Assembly: GCA_902793635.1 (NCBI GenBank)
Contig: CADBEA010000002.1
Coordinates: 1-64,000, forward strand
Length of the DNA: 64,000 nt
From: an uncultured Erysipelotrichaceae bacterium
GTDB taxonomy: Bacteria; Bacillota_I; Bacilli_A; Erysipelotrichales; Erysipelotrichaceae
Direction: 5' to 3'
Shown: positions 29,300 through 51,856 of the stretch, piece after piece
Layout of the letters: each line of letters begins with the position of its first letter
Position numbering within the stretch: position 1 is the first letter of the stretch
Notes under the pieces: model-generated
Seen by the model: the letters and a program-made list of their open reading frames with translations, nothing else
Databases searched by the model: none
What the model was told of the DNA's origin: nothing
Made by a program: the position numbers and the translations under genes

Positions 29300-29768
29300 T
29301 ATGAATTCAGGCAATTGTGGAAAAATAAACAGTCCTGTTTTTTCCGGTTTTCCGATGTTTTTTTCTGTCTCTTTTCCAATATTGGAAATTGTGACTTTTC
29401 CACCTGTTTTTCACAATTGAATAATTATACTTTTCCACAATTGTTGAAAACTGTCGAAAACTCATTATGTCCTTTATTTATAAGCTTTTTTTACTGTTTA
29501 TAAATTGTTTGTTACATCTTTTCATTTTGTGTTTTCCAACAATTTTCAGAGTTATCAACACGTGGATAAGATTTCCACATTTTTTCCACTTCTTCATTTT
29601 GTTTATAATTGTGGAAAACCCTGAATAACCTTTATTTAAAGGTCTATTCTCATATTTAATCTTATGTGGATAAAAAAGTTATCAACATTTTTATTATGGA
29701 TTTTCATAGTTATCCACATTAAAATGATAATGCATAAATGTATCAATTAGTTAGGAGCTTTACGTACC
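29300..29768. other. Chromosomal replication origin region (oriC) upstream of dnaA
   Basis: AT-rich, gene-free, with about ten DnaA-box-like 9-mers. Perfect boxes are TGTGGATAA at 29665-29673 and TTATCCACA at 29710-29718. One-mismatch or two-mismatch boxes include TGTGGAAAA (29316, 29610), TTTTCCACA (29431), TTATCAACA (29552, 29679), CGTGGATAA (29561) and ATTTCCACA (29571). Both orientations occur. AT-rich stretches around 29461-29530 and 29620-29660 are unwinding candidates. This matches the usual dnaA-upstream origin half of Firmicutes. Confidence 0.88.
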
Positions 29769-31133
29769 ATGTCTCAGGGAAGAGAACAGTATCTGGTCGA
29801 AGTGTGGAACCAGATCTTACAATATCTGTACAGTAACAGAAATATAGAACCGGTGATCCTGGATAACTTCTATTCGACATGTTCATTATATGAACTGACG
29901 GAAGAGAAAGCCATCCTGTTGGTTCCGAATATAGTATCGAAACAGATCATCCAGAGTCAGTCAGATATTATCAACGCTGCTTTTATTGATGTTCTGAAGA
30001 AAGATACGCCGATGATTGTGGAAATCTATCAGAAATCTGATATTCCGCCTGTCATCACGCCGGTCCAGCATTTTGATGAAACAGAATTCCAGTCAATGCC
30101 GATTCAGAAAGAAAGAACGTTTGATAATTTCGTTGTCGGTGACTGTAACCGGGAAAGCCAGGCTGCCGCACTTGCCTGTGCCATCAACCCCGGTAAATTC
30201 TTTAATCCGCTCTTTATCTACGGTAATTCCGGACTTGGCAAGACACACTTGCTGATGGCAATCGCCAATTATGTCCTCAAGGAAGATCCGACCAAGAAAG
30301 TGTATTATACCGAATCACTGAAATTTGTTGAAAACGTCGTCAATGCGATCCATGAAGGCAAAATTGATGCTTTCAAGCAATATCTGTATTCCATCGACCT
30401 GTTCCTGGTAGATGACATCCAGTTCCTTGCCGGTAAGGAAAAATCCCATGAGATCTTCTTTACCATTTACAACGAACTGGTCAACAACCGCAAACAGATC
30501 TGTATTGCTTCAGACCGGCAGCCTAAGGAAATCAAAGGCCTGGAAGACCGTCTGATCAGCCGTTTTTCCAGCGGACTGTCCGTCGGTATCGATTCACCGG
30601 AATTTGAAACATCCATGGCGATCCTGAAAATGAAGATCAAACAGAACAGCTACGGCATGGATGACGTCGAACCGGAAGCTCTTGCTTATATTGCCAGTAA
30701 CTTCTCCGGCAATGTCAGAGATCTGGAAGGTGCCTGGAACCGTGTGCTGTTCTATGCCATCCAGTTCCAGCATGACGGCGGTGTCATTCAGTTCCAGACC
30801 GTCATGAACGCTCTGAAAAATCAGGCTGTCGTTTCGGATAAGACTGGTTTGTCCCCGAAGAAGATCATCAAGACCGTCGCTGATTATTACGGACTGACCA
30901 GACAGCAGATCACTTCCAAGACGAGAACCAAGAATATTGCCAATGCCAGACATATTTCCATCTATCTGTGCCGCAAGCTTCTCGATCTGCCCTATATCAA
31001 GATCGGTGATGAATTCGGCGGCCGTGATCATTCCACAATTATCAGTGCCTGTACCAAGGTGGAAAACCAGATTCAGAAAGACAAGGTCTTCGCCACAGCT
31101 GTGGAAGAAATCGAGAAACAGATCATCATCTGA
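29769..31133 (+). CDS. dnaA: Chromosomal replication initiator protein DnaA
   Basis: Binds DnaA boxes, oligomerises with ATP and opens oriC. 454 residues: domain I (1-85) for helicase and regulator contacts, a short linker, the AAA+ domain III with Walker A GNSGLGKTH (about 153), Walker B LFLVDDIQFL and an arginine finger region, and domain IV with the DnaA signature around GGRDHSTIISAC at the C-terminus. TAGGAG lies 11 bases before the ATG. DnaA boxes on both sides suggest autoregulation. Confidence 0.98.
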   Translation: MSQGREQYLVEVWNQILQYLYSNRNIEPVILDNFYSTCSLYELTEEKAILLVPNIVSKQIIQSQSDIINAAFIDVLKKDTPMIVEIYQKSDIPPVITPVQHFDETEFQSMPIQKERTFDNFVVGDCNRESQAAALACAINPGKFFNPLFIYGNSGLGKTHLLMAIANYVLKEDPTKKVYYTESLKFVENVVNAIHEGKIDAFKQYLYSIDLFLVDDIQFLAGKEKSHEIFFTIYNELVNNRKQICIASDRQPKEIKGLEDRLISRFSSGLSVGIDSPEFETSMAILKMKIKQNSYGMDDVEPEALAYIASNFSGNVRDLEGAWNRVLFYAIQFQHDGGVIQFQTVMNALKNQAVVSDKTGLSPKKIIKTVADYYGLTRQQITSKTRTKNIANARHISIYLCRKLLDLPYIKIGDEFGGRDHSTIISACTKVENQIQKDKVFATAVEEIEKQIII

Positions 31134-31285
31134 TTCTCCACATTTTTCTCCACTTCAGAATAACAGTCCAAAATGCTAAAATAAGCAGGTGAATAAAGGG
31201 AATACACAGGTTTTCCACATTATCCACAGTCTTAATAACAATAATACTTAAAAATACTTAATACATATACGGGAGGCTTTCAGCT
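31134..31285. promoter_or_regulatory. DnaA-box cluster between dnaA and dnaN
   Basis: TTTTCCACA (31211-31219) and a perfect TTATCCACA (31220-31228) stand in tandem, with two weaker boxes near 31133-31155. With the cluster upstream of dnaA this gives a bipartite origin like that of Bacillus; it may also control dnaN. Confidence 0.75.
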
Positions 31286-38957: not shown

Positions 38958-39190
38958 AACGCGATGATAGGGAAAAGTAAGCAAATACTGTAAAAAAACA
39001 GAAAACCGGTGGTTGATGGAAACCGGTACAGTTATGACTGAATCCGCCCTGGAGTGAAACTAATCATTTCCGGCTGTGTCCGTTATCCACAGATCAAAGA
39101 GGTATAAATTGTTTCACGGGAAACAATTTTTATACAAAAAGGGTGGCACCGCGACTGTTCTCGTCCCTTTGTCGGGGCGTTTTTTATTTG
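38958..39190 (+). ncRNA. T-box riboswitch, serine-specific, before serS
   Basis: Senses uncharged tRNA(Ser) and allows read-through into serS. Stem I is closed by AGGG/CCCT; the 5' side has AAAGUAAG and the specifier loop reads CUGAA-UCC-GCC, so the codon is UCC (Ser). Its apical arm has ACTGT/ACAGT and ACCGGT/ACCGGT stems. A long palindromic stem lies at 39102-39135. The T-box GGGTGGCACCGCG is at 39141-39153, and the terminator CGTCCC/GGGGCG with T-run is at 39163-39187. Stem I is compact. The specifier call is from loop context, not a folding run. Confidence 0.9.
39110..39125. other. parS-like 16-mer, hybrid with Noc-site half, inside the T-box
   Basis: TGTTTCACGGGAAACA differs from the consensus parS TGTTTCACGTGAAACA at one base. 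The left half is parS-type; the right half, read on the other strand, is TGTTTCCC, between parS and the Noc half-site TATTTCCC. It is the core of the palindromic stem at 39102-39135. Confidence 0.55.
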
Positions 39191-40509: not shown

Positions 40510-40546
40510 AAATACAGAACTGTTTCACACAGATCTGTATTTTTTT
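40510..40546 (+). terminator. Terminator after serS
   Basis: AAATACAGA and TCTGTATTT with a 14-base loop and a further T-run; the loop carries a parS half-site (GTTTCAC). Confidence 0.75.
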
Positions 40547-40561
40547 GTTTCACGTGAAACA
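40546..40561. other. Perfect parS site
   Basis: TGTTTCACGTGAAACA, identical to the Bacillus consensus bound by ParB (Spo0J). It lies 11 kb to the right of oriC in the gap between serS and the SRP RNA, and parA/parB follow 10 kb further on. It should nucleate ParB spreading and SMC loading. Confidence 0.95.
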
Positions 40562-45650: not shown

Positions 45651-46550
45651 ATGAGTTCGATAGCATATGTAACGGATGAAAAAATGCTGGAGTATCACCG
45701 TCTCTGCAGAAACAAGGATATTCTGTTCTGGCGTCTTTCCAGCCGCAAAAAGTTCACAGACTTCCGCAAGGGAGACCTGCTGTTCTTTTTTGCGCGTCCG
45801 CCGCATACCCGCCGCAAAGGACTCATCGGTTATGCCCATTTTGATTCGGTAAAACGGCTTTCCCTGCGGCAGATGTGGGAACAGTACGGCACCTCGACCG
45901 GCTATGATTCCCGCGATCTGCTCAGTGAAGCGATTGCCAAGGCTGCCAAAGGCACGATTCCTAAGCAGATGAGCTGTCTCTATCTGAAGGACGTCGTGTT
46001 CTTCGTCAGTCCGATCTATCCGGAGGAAATCGGTATTGAAATACCGAAAAATCTGGAAAGTTACTGCTATCTTGACCGTAACAATCCGAAGATCACAGTG
46101 AGTATCCTGAATCTGGCGGAGACCCGCGGCATCGATCTCTGGAGCGCGGCTGACAATACCGAACCGGAAGTCATCTTCGCACGTGACGAGATCCGTCATA
46201 AGTTCGCCGTCATGCACAAGGAAATCGGCAAAGAGTCGGGCAGTGAGAAAGAACGCAACAACTGCAGCCGGCTGGCCAGAAACAGAACGGAGGATCCGGA
46301 GTGGGAAATGATCCGGGGATCCCGCACCGACTGTCTGAAAGTGGAAAATGATACCGTATGGATCGCCATGCCGTATGCCGTGCAGGCCAACGACAAGGAT
46401 CTCAGGATCCGTGAGCTGTTCGGCAGGATGACGATGTACCGGTTATTATCCGGACAGTATCAGGTTGGCAAAAAGATCCGTTTTGAACTGCTGGGAGATC
46501 ATATTCCGGCATATATAACAGAAATGGTGGAACAGCTGAATCATGAGTGA
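45651..46550 (+). CDS. Protein of unknown function, possibly PUA/EVE-like N-terminal domain
   Basis: 299 residues, soluble. The N-terminal half (ILFWRLSSRKKF, FRKGDLLFFFARPP, KGLIGYAHFDSV) has the beta-rich Trp/Gly pattern of PUA-like or EVE modified-base-binding domains, but I cannot confirm this. The second half is charged and has no motif I recognise. It overlaps mnmG by 8 bp and is likely co-expressed with it, which would suit an RNA-related role (inference). Confidence 0.7.
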   Translation: MSSIAYVTDEKMLEYHRLCRNKDILFWRLSSRKKFTDFRKGDLLFFFARPPHTRRKGLIGYAHFDSVKRLSLRQMWEQYGTSTGYDSRDLLSEAIAKAAKGTIPKQMSCLYLKDVVFFVSPIYPEEIGIEIPKNLESYCYLDRNNPKITVSILNLAETRGIDLWSAADNTEPEVIFARDEIRHKFAVMHKEIGKESGSEKERNNCSRLARNRTEDPEWEMIRGSRTDCLKVENDTVWIAMPYAVQANDKDLRIRELFGRMTMYRLLSGQYQVGKKIRFELLGDHIPAYITEMVEQLNHE

Positions 46551-48423: not shown

Positions 48424-48636
48424 GTTACTGAATAGCCTATAAATAAAGGGTATTTCATAAATTTGTGGAAAAATATTATTTCCACAATATGATAAATTAA
48501 GGCACTGAAATGAGGAAAAAGAAGTTTTCCACAATCGAGGAGTTAAACAACGTAAATTGTGGATAACTCAATTTCCCACAAATTAGATATATCCACAGCC
48601 GGATGACGGTGATAAAATGATACACACGGAGGCTTT
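48424..48636. other. Second DnaA-box cluster, between mnmG and rsmG
   Basis: Six DnaA-box-like 9-mers in 135 bases: TGTGGAAAA (48464), ATTTCCACA (48478), TTTTCCACA (48525), perfect TGTGGATAA (48558-48566), TTTCCCACA (48572) and ATATCCACA (48589). The stretch is AT-rich and is also the promoter region of rsmG-noc-parA-parB. Next to gidA (mnmG), it matches the place of the origin in many other bacteria. Confidence 0.75.
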
Positions 48637-49332
48637 ATGAATTTTACGCAGTTGCAGACAACCGCAAAAGATAACGGCATCATATTATCGGATGAATTGC
48701 TGGAACAGCTGCGTGCCTACATGGATCTGTTAATTGCCTGGAATGAGAAGTTCAACCTGACGGCCATCACTGAGCCGGAAGAGATTATCGCCAAGCATTT
48801 CTGGGACAGCATCATTCCGTTAACACTATATCCGGTGGAAGGAAAAATCGCTGATGTCGGCACCGGCGCTGGATTCCCTGGTCTGGTCTGGAAAATTGTC
48901 AGACCGGAGCTGTCTGTTTCACTGATCGAACCGACCGGCAAGAGATGTACATTCTTAAAGGAAACTGTCAATGTTCTGCATCTGCAGGGTGTGGAAATCT
49001 TCAATGTCCGTAGTGAGGAACATGTAAAAGACCGCCGGGAATACTACGACGTGGTAACTGCCCGGGCAGTTGCTAACCTCAGAGTGCTTTGTGAACTGTG
49101 TCTGCCGCTTGTGAAGACAGGCGGAAGCTTTATCGCCATGAAAGGTTCCCGCGGCAATGAAGAACTGCAGGAAGCAAGCAGTGCGATTCACACGCTGGGC
49201 GGCGGTAAACCGGAAAGTCATACTGTTTCACTGGCGGATGAAGAGCGGATCAATATTCTGATTCCGAAGGTATCCGCGACACCGCTGAAATATCCGCGCA
49301 ATTACGGACAGATCAAAAAGAAGCCGTTATAA
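48637..49332 (+). CDS. rsmG: 16S rRNA (guanine527-N7)-methyltransferase
   Basis: Methylates G527 of 16S rRNA with SAM; loss gives low-level streptomycin resistance. 231 residues; SAM motif DVGTGAGFPGLVWKI and the FNLTAI N-terminal signature. ACGGAGG precedes the ATG. First of a four-gene run with noc, parA and parB. Confidence 0.96.
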   Translation: MNFTQLQTTAKDNGIILSDELLEQLRAYMDLLIAWNEKFNLTAITEPEEIIAKHFWDSIIPLTLYPVEGKIADVGTGAGFPGLVWKIVRPELSVSLIEPTGKRCTFLKETVNVLHLQGVEIFNVRSEEHVKDRREYYDVVTARAVANLRVLCELCLPLVKTGGSFIAMKGSRGNEELQEASSAIHTLGGGKPESHTVSLADEERINILIPKVSATPLKYPRNYGQIKKKPL

Positions 49333-49346
49333 GATAAGGAGAATCA

Positions 49347-50162
49347 ATGAATCTCAATATTCTTGACATATTTGACCGCAATGACACTGAGAAGATCGTC
49401 CGTGTTCCGATCGGTGATATCCACCCGTCCCGCTACCAGCCGCGTCTGCGTTTCGATGAGACAGCCCTTGCCGAACTGACAGAATCCATTCGGGAAAACG
49501 GACTGATTCAGCCGATCACCGTACGCAAGTCGGATAACGGTTATGAAATCATTGCCGGTGAACGTCGTTATAGGGCGTGTCTGAGAGCCGGGTATGACGA
49601 GATTCCGTGCTATGTCATGTCCCCGACCGAGGAACAGGCAGCACGGATGGCATTGGTGGAAAACGTGCAGAGAGAAAATCTCAGTGCGATCGAAGAAGCG
49701 AAAAGCTATGTGCAGATCATGCGCCAGGCCGGCATGACCCAGGAACAGGTAGCCAAGTCCATCGGCAAATCACAGTCAGCCGTGGCCAATAAGATCCGCC
49801 TGCTCAATCTGCCTGATGAAGTGCAGGAAGGCGTTGTCGCCGGCAAGATCACTGAACGGCATGCCAGAGCGCTGCTCAGTGTGCCGCAGGGTCAGATCAG
49901 ACCGACCTACCGGCATATCGTCAAAGCCGGTCTGAATGTCAGGGAAAGCGAAGAGTACATCGCGGATCTGACAGCCGGTAAGATCAAACCGAAACCCAAA
50001 AAGAAGAAACATACAACCAGGGGCTTTACCCGCAATATGCAGATTGCCGTCAACTCCGTCAATCAATGTGTTCAGATGATCGAGAAGATGGGAGTGAAAG
50101 CGGTTCTGGAGATGGATGACAGCGATGACGAACTGCGGATGATCATCCGTCTGCCAAAATAA
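49347..50162 (+). CDS. noc: Nucleoid occlusion protein Noc (ParB family)
   Basis: CTP-switched DNA clamp that keeps the division septum off the nucleoid. 271 residues: short N-terminal membrane-targeting segment (MNLNILDIF, amphipathic), ParB N-domain with the CTP motif GERRYRACLRAG, and HTH (MTQEQVAKSIGKSQSAVANK). Position before parA and the short N-terminus mark it as Noc, parB being the second paralogue. Confidence 0.93.
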   Translation: MNLNILDIFDRNDTEKIVRVPIGDIHPSRYQPRLRFDETALAELTESIRENGLIQPITVRKSDNGYEIIAGERRYRACLRAGYDEIPCYVMSPTEEQAARMALVENVQRENLSAIEEAKSYVQIMRQAGMTQEQVAKSIGKSQSAVANKIRLLNLPDEVQEGVVAGKITERHARALLSVPQGQIRPTYRHIVKAGLNVRESEEYIADLTAGKIKPKPKKKKHTTRGFTRNMQIAVNSVNQCVQMIEKMGVKAVLEMDDSDDELRMIIRLPK

Positions 50163-50177
50163 ACGAGGATCAATACT

Positions 50178-50957
50178 ATGGGAAAGATAATTGCAATCGC
50201 CAATCAGAAAGGCGGTGTCGGTAAGACAACAACATCAATGAATCTGGCAGCTGGTCTGTCATATGTGAATAAAAGGGTGCTGTTGGTGGATTTTGATCCC
50301 CAGGGCAATGCCACACATGGCATAGGTGCTAACAAGGTGGGCTATCACAAGACGGTGTATGACGTGCTGATGGGCACGGAATCCGTGGAGGACTGCAAAG
50401 TCACTTTGCAGATGCCGCCGCTCGATGTGCTTCCTTCGACAATTGACCTGTCCGGTGCGGATGTCGATATGGCATCGTATGAAATGGGCCGGGAAAAGCT
50501 GCTGAAGAACAAGCTCGACGCGGTCCGTGATCAGTATGACTACATCATCATTGACTGTCCTCCGGCCCTTGGTCTGCTCAATACCAACGCTCTGACAGCT
50601 GCCGATACCGTCATGATTCCGGTGCAGTGTGAATACTTTGCCCTGGAAGGTCTGACCCAGCTGCTCAGCACGATCCGTCTGGTACAGAAACTGTGGAATC
50701 CGAACCTTTCCATTGAAGGTGTTCTGCTGACGATGTTTGACGTCCGTACCAAACTGAGTGTCGAAGTCCAGCAGGAAGTTCGGAAATACTTCAAGGAAAA
50801 GGTTTACCGCTGCTATATTCCCCGTAACGTCAGGCTCTCTGAAGCACCGTCCCGGGAAGAATCCATTTTCGAATATGATACCCGCTCGGAAGGTGCCAAG
50901 GCATATGCCCAGCTGGTAAAGGAAGTCATCATGCAGAATGAAAGGCGGAGGAAGTAA
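50178..50957 (+). CDS. parA: Chromosome partitioning ATPase ParA (Soj)
   Basis: 259 residues; deviant Walker A KGGVGKTTTSMNLA, switch with DCPPALGLL, and the usual C-terminal DNA-binding arginines. Regulates DnaA and origin segregation with ParB. Ends on the parB start by a 1-bp overlap. Confidence 0.97.
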   Translation: MGKIIAIANQKGGVGKTTTSMNLAAGLSYVNKRVLLVDFDPQGNATHGIGANKVGYHKTVYDVLMGTESVEDCKVTLQMPPLDVLPSTIDLSGADVDMASYEMGREKLLKNKLDAVRDQYDYIIIDCPPALGLLNTNALTAADTVMIPVQCEYFALEGLTQLLSTIRLVQKLWNPNLSIEGVLLTMFDVRTKLSVEVQQEVRKYFKEKVYRCYIPRNVRLSEAPSREESIFEYDTRSEGAKAYAQLVKEVIMQNERRRK

Positions 50958-51856
50958 TGGCCGAGAAGAAGAATCGTTCCGGACTTGGCGGCAGAGGCCT
51001 GGATGCCATTTTCGGAACCAACGTGGAACAGTTCCTGGACGAGATCCAGAATAATAAGACAGAAGGCAGCGGCCGCCGGGAAGTACAGATCCCGATCCGC
51101 GAGATCCGTCCCAATCCCTACCAGCCGCGTAAGGAATTTGATCAGGCCGCATTGAACGAACTGGCAGATTCCATCCGCACCCATGGTATCTTCACACCGC
51201 TGCTGGTGCGCAAGAGCGTTCAGGGTTATGTACTGATCACCGGTGAAAGACGTTTAAGAGCGGCGGAAATCGCCGGTCTGACAGAAGTTCCGGCGATTGA
51301 AGTGGACTTCACGGACGAAGAGATGATGGAAATCGCCATCCTCGAAAATGTCCAGCGTGAAGACCTGAACCCGATCGAAGAAGCGACAGCTTATGAATCA
51401 CTGGTCAAGAAGCTCGGCTACACCCAGGAAAAACTGGCTGAGCGGGTCGGCAAGAGCCGTGAATACTGCGCCAATATCATGCGTCTTCTGAAGCTTCCTT
51501 CTGAAGTTCAGAAACTGGTCGTGGAAAAGAAACTGACAATGAGCCATGTCAGACCGCTTCTCAGTCTCGGTGATGAAGACCAGATCTACGAAGCAGCCCG
51601 CCAGGTCATGAAGAACAAGATGTCGGTGCGTGAAGTGGAAGCGTATGTCCATGAACTGGCCGGCACGGAAGTCAAACCGAAGCCGAAGAAAAAGACCGAG
51701 ACCAAAGATCCCTGGATCAGAGATCTTGAACAGCGTATGCAGGAAAAACTTGGCACCCGTGTCAATATTTCCGGCAAACAGCTGCAGATTTCTTACTCGG
51801 ATACTGACGATCTGAACCGGATCCTGGAAATCATCGGCTGTATCAGTGAAGACTGA
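50957..51856 (+). CDS. parB: Chromosome partitioning protein ParB (Spo0J)
   Basis: 299 residues. N-terminal ParA-stimulating segment (KKNRSGLGGRGLDAIFGTN), CTPase domain with GERRLRAAEIAG, HTH (YTQEKLAERVGKSREYCANI), linker and C-terminal dimer domain. A perfect parS is at 40546. Co-transcribed with parA. Confidence 0.97.
   Translation: MAEKKNRSGLGGRGLDAIFGTNVEQFLDEIQNNKTEGSGRREVQIPIREIRPNPYQPRKEFDQAALNELADSIRTHGIFTPLLVRKSVQGYVLITGERRLRAAEIAGLTEVPAIEVDFTDEEMMEIAILENVQREDLNPIEEATAYESLVKKLGYTQEKLAERVGKSREYCANIMRLLKLPSEVQKLVVEKKLTMSHVRPLLSLGDEDQIYEAARQVMKNKMSVREVEAYVHELAGTEVKPKPKKKTETKDPWIRDLEQRMQEKLGTRVNISGKQLQISYSDTDDLNRILEIIGCISED

Follow-up and report, generated by a model that had tools for sequence, protein, structure and literature searches.

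In the stretch of DNA analysed here (64,000 nucleotides, referred to below as the window), the gap between mnmG and rsmG is probably a DnaA-controlled promoter of rsmG-noc-parA-parB, whose operator would be common with the dnaA promoter. An earlier note on this DNA had raised a DnaA-controlled promoter for noc-parA-parB as one of its readings, and that proposal was strengthened by the comparison with relatives, in which the boxes stay with rsmG, keep defined distances to a conserved −10 element and recur at the dnaA promoter. The proposed operon starts with rsmG (gidB, 48637–49332, plus strand; TIGR00138, E 2e-51) and continues on the same strand with noc, a ParB-like nucleoid occlusion gene (49347–50162, 14 bp after rsmG; TIGR04285, 310.7 bits, slightly below the cut-off of 315), soj-like parA (50178–50957, 15 bp after noc; ParA family matches) and spo0J-like parB (50957–51856; TIGR00180, 190.7 bits), which has one base in common with the end of parA.

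DnaA boxes in the mnmG-rsmG gap

The gap extends from the end of mnmG (48423) to the start of rsmG (48637), covers positions 48424–48636 (213 bp) and has a GC content of 33%, in agreement with its earlier description as AT-rich. With TTATCCACA as the DnaA box consensus for mismatch counts, four boxes with at most one mismatch were found, starting at 48464 (−), 48525 (+), 48558 (−, perfect) and 48589 (+), and four more with exactly two mismatches at 48478 (+), 48511 (−), 48572 (+) and 48618 (+), giving eight boxes at two mismatches or fewer. The earlier note had described six DnaA-box-like 9-mers, one of them perfect; the cluster and its single perfect box hold, and the number six gives way to four good boxes, or eight with the weak ones included. 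Dinucleotide-preserving shuffles of the gap contained on average 0.10 boxes at one mismatch or fewer, and none of 10,000 trials reached the observed four. Only three places in the 64-kb window hold at least three such boxes per 213 bp, namely the region upstream of dnaA, the dnaA-dnaN gap and the mnmG-rsmG gap. The two clusters already reported on the dnaA side were recovered at 29316–29718 and 31134–31228, and the mnmG-rsmG cluster lies about 19 kb from oriC. A perfect box at 39083 was rejected as a further cluster, as it is a lone box just upstream of the serS open reading frame, apparently in the serS T-box leader.

The gap boxes are laid out as −/+ inverted pairs whose starts are exactly 14 bp apart (48464/48478, 48511/48525 and 48558/48572), a layout that the earlier note missed. 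The pairs follow a 23-bp pattern, TGTGGANAA-N5-TTNTCCACA, are assigned to neither strand, and repeat three times at a pitch of 47 bp before a single box at 48589. Pair 1 (48464–48486) reads TGTGGAAAA-N5-ATTTCCACA. Pair 2 (48511–48533), 47 bp after pair 1, reads TGAGGAAAA-N5-TTTTCCACA and has a degenerate left half, which is also found in loci L091 and L093. Pair 3 (48558–48580), which contains the perfect box (TGTGGATAA-N5-TTTCCCACA) and ends 32 bp before the predicted −10, is the best conserved of the gap pairs across the genus. The single box (48589–48597, plus strand, ATATCCACA), also present in L091, falls on the predicted −35 region as judged from the position of the −10.

One further inverted pair was located at dnaA (29665–29687, assigned to neither strand); it has one mismatch to the pattern and ends 32 bp before the predicted dnaA −10 (29720–29725), just upstream of which lies a perfect DnaA box (29710–29718, plus strand). 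When the complete genome (2.43 Mb) was searched for the six-base halves at the pair spacing, one mismatch or none being allowed, eight pairs were recovered: the three in the gap, the one at dnaA and four elsewhere. These last four weak pairs (C11, C23, C27 and C47) showed no match to the replication and partition genes used as queries and were set aside as chance.

Conservation and promoter geometry among relatives

Conservation was assessed mainly in genus g1 of the Erysipelotrichaceae, which includes the host genome, Lactimicrobium massiliense and numerous rumen MAGs that carry the label Solobacterium sp. The comparison of the gap across relatives that the earlier note called for found the boxes to be conserved, with a pair before rsmG in 36 of 48 distinct g1 rsmG loci and no recognisable pair in the remaining 12, these loci, as members of one genus, not being independent of each other. 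The −/+ arrangement at 14 bp was present in 26 rsmG upstream regions and the next commonest arrangement in three. In L217 (genome G267), two exact pairs upstream of rsmG are 25 bp apart and nearly abut, the usual pitch being 41–48 bp.

In many congeners, mnmG and rsmG are separated by a single gene of roughly 200 codons or by two genes with a combined length of 1.8 kb, and where one or two genes (600–1900 bp) intervene, the boxes adjoin rsmG and not mnmG. A function of the boxes linked to mnmG was rejected on the ground that they stay with rsmG across this distance. The gene of about 200 codons occurs alone or with one of about 415–450 codons in L009, L039, L045, L049 and others; the window lacks both. 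The sister family f2 has mnmG, rsmG and noc directly adjoining one another and lacks the boxes, and the sampled other genera of the same family showed no such pair at rsmG. The rsmG boxes are confined to g1 and so give the impression of having been acquired recently, not of being a relic.

The exact pattern is closely tied to two genes. A search of 295 genomes of the order yielded 54 sites in 42 genomes, 38 of which belong to g1, and for all 54 sites the gene that follows within about 330 bp is dnaA or rsmG; a reversed control pattern gave no sites in the same 295 genomes. A third target was absent from all 42 genomes carrying exact pairs. Outside g1, the exact pair occurs only at dnaA (genera g27 and g56). 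In three genomes of g56 (L221, L222 and L223) it is placed about 310–330 bp upstream of dnaA, compared with −97 in g1. Most other genera of the family have no dnaA-side pair, and a palindrome 31–32 bp before the dnaA −10 appears specific to g1 and one neighbouring genus. In Holdemania massiliensis, a pair close to mnmG (L128:7180) that is rich in G+C and matches with one mismatch was discounted as likely chance.

The motif TGnTARAAT is conserved about 24 bp before the rsmG ATG in g1, where the extended TGn is usual, and by this motif an extended −10 of the rsmG promoter is predicted in the window at 48610–48618 (plus strand, TGATAAAAT, hexamer 48613–48618). The −35 elements are weak. A generic promoter scan did not report the rsmG −10, which was found by motif, so the start site is a predicted one. 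At dnaA, the distance from the end of the pair to the −10 is 31–32 bp in all but one g1 locus in which both were found. At rsmG it is 30–34 bp in 17 loci, 52–55 bp in ten, 41–43 bp in four, and 16 and 67–68 bp in two each. Steps of roughly 10.5 and 21 bp, equivalent to about one and two turns of the helix, separate the main rsmG distance classes, a pattern suggestive of the same face of the helix being kept between pair and −10, to which the 16-bp and 67–68-bp classes are exceptions. The Rayleigh test gave p 7e-7 with loci treated as independent and 0.05 on distinct values, and the rsmG tree holds only about six changes of distance class.

Pair and −10 also tend to occur together. Among the 48 g1 rsmG loci, 35 have both, one has the pair only, three have the −10 only and nine have neither (Fisher p 1.2e-6); loci without a pair mostly lack the −10 too, often where rsmG directly follows another gene. 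As a candidate DnaA-regulated promoter, the gap combines a box cluster beyond chance with a conserved −10, and its boxes are both conserved in relatives and tied to the promoter.

The origin of replication and other explanations

The window also holds dnaA (29769–31133, plus strand; TIGR00362, E 2e-128), the translation of which contains the C-terminal signature GGRDHSTI, an indirect indication for DnaA as the putative binder of the boxes. The dnaA-dnaN gap (31134–31285, assigned to neither strand) has boxes at 31134, 31211 and 31220, then a DnaA-trio-like run (TAATAACAATAA) at 31233, and is the probable unwinding side of oriC. A relic or still-used gidA-side origin had been suggested for the mnmG-rsmG stretch, which is AT-rich and holds a box cluster, and mnmG borders the origin in several bacteria. 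The skew analysis called for in the earlier note placed the switch near dnaA and not at this gap: in L. massiliense the cumulative GC-skew curve, taken over 400 kb, reaches its minimum at 107.8 kb, beside dnaA (111.6–113.0 kb) and not at rsmG-mnmG (about 92–95 kb), and in the host contig the minimum is at 32.4 kb, again near dnaA. A simple trio scan found a DnaA-trio run only in the dnaA-dnaN gap and none beside the boxes of the mnmG-rsmG gap. Nor do relatives point to an ancestral presence beside mnmG, the boxes following rsmG and being missing from f2 and from the sampled genera of the family other than g1. It is thus very unlikely that the mnmG-side stretch is a second or relic origin of replication, and a relic or auxiliary origin of the gidA-side kind is a reading to which we give hardly any credence.

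The cluster could instead serve mainly to titrate DnaA close to oriC or to reset it, in the manner of the B. subtilis clusters or datA and DARS of E. coli, with little effect on the transcription of rsmG. Four good boxes, eight with the weak ones, at 19 kb from oriC would suit such a sink, and in B. subtilis six clusters outside oriC are described as restraining initiation (Okumura et al. 2012, as cited in PMC13220808). However, a sink needs no set distance to a −10, let alone one common with dnaA, it need not be missing mostly where rsmG is without its own −10, and the single pair of many relatives would make a small sink; we consider titration as the main role unlikely. The strict symmetry and fixed spacing of the pairs resemble the operator of a dimer, and the dnaA-side pair is lacking in most other genera of the family, as might be expected if another regulator bound the palindrome at dnaA and rsmG and the DnaA-box likeness were an overlap with its half-site. 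Yet the half-sites are TTATCCACA itself or its common variants, the dnaA-side pair sits inside the box cluster of the origin, and the 42 exact-pair genomes offer no third target, although a regulator often marks its own gene also. Such a regulator seems improbable, and DnaA control of the rsmG promoter is the reading followed below.

Proposed regulation and relation to known systems

From the sequence features described above we infer DnaA as the binder, an effect on transcription and the sign of that effect. The operator of a DnaA-controlled rsmG promoter would be the 23-bp inverted pair, on which two DnaA molecules would sit on opposite strands, upstream of RNA polymerase at about −67 to −45 from the assumed start site and at a distance to the −10 equal to that in the dnaA promoter. 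In the window there would be three such operator sites in tandem, 47 bp apart, and an additional box on the −35. A site that is upstream and roughly face-of-helix points to activation at low occupancy, and the additional box within the core promoter points to possible repression at high DnaA-ATP, comparable to the proposal for the E. coli nrdAB promoter, which would be activated when DnaA-ATP is low and repressed when it is high (PMC8203912). ParA/Soj and Noc may in turn act back on DnaA or initiation and so close a feedback loop, which is plausible because both proteins have such effects in other Firmicutes: in B. subtilis, DnaA is under the control of ParA/Soj (PMC6399470), and in S. aureus, Noc acts on the control of initiation (PMC5540599). 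The complete model, in which a dedicated DnaA regulon of two promoters in g1 (dnaA and rsmG-noc-parA-parB) would use one 23-bp palindromic operator, with two DnaA molecules on one helix face at a set distance from RNA polymerase, and would join initiation, nucleoid occlusion and segregation in one closed feedback loop, is put forward tentatively, at slightly under even chances.

A link from DnaA to noc is already known from B. subtilis, where DnaA has a site between jag and trmE and exerts direct, apparently repressive control over trmE-mnmG-rsmG-noc (PMC4447404, PMC8203912), with direct regulation stated for trmEF-rsmG-noc and dnaA-dnaN (PMC8203912, PMC4447404). That operon adjoins oriC, and its DnaA sites, like those studied here, stand a few kb from oriC before an operon carrying rsmG and noc. 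In the present genome, by contrast, the sites are directly upstream of rsmG, leaving mnmG outside and taking parA-parB into the operon, and they form inverted pairs with a fixed 14-bp spacing common with the dnaA promoter. A third DnaA cluster close to oriC has a precedent, since B. subtilis has DnaA peaks at trmE, dnaA and dnaA/dnaN within 7 kb (PMC4447404); the three-cluster arrangement of the earlier note is spread over 19 kb.

The DnaA-box clusters outside oriC in B. subtilis are likewise close to the origin, whereas those here are tied to a promoter and often consist of one pair only. The E. coli nrdAB promoter also carries DnaA boxes but serves different genes, and no inverted-pair geometry is reported for it in the literature consulted. 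Autoregulation of dnaA in E. coli, B. subtilis and others similarly involves DnaA boxes at the dnaA promoter, where the palindrome also occurs here, but its placement 31–32 bp before the −10 is apparently peculiar to g1 and one neighbouring genus. Our literature search found no papers on DnaA boxes of Erysipelotrichaceae, and in the literature searched no description was found of the inverted-pair operator, its placement directly before rsmG, the inclusion of parA-parB or the exact sharing with dnaA. DnaA regulons are considered to differ greatly from one species to another; the initiator-to-noc link of B. subtilis would recur in a distant Firmicute family with its sites re-placed and parA-parB included. 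The fixed geometry common to two promoters would also make a clean system for studying the switch of DnaA between activation and repression, which is listed as open in a review (PMC8203912).

Three other features of the neighbourhood were observed. A 299-aa open reading frame at 45651–46550, directly upstream of mnmG and overlapping its start, had no Pfam or NCBIfam match. A perfect parS site (TGTTTCACGTGAAACA) lies at 40546–40561 between serS and a deaminase gene; one further parS, with one mismatch (TGTTTCACGGGAAACA), is at 39110–39125 just upstream of the serS open reading frame, apparently in its T-box leader; the chance expectation for parS in the window is 0.05.
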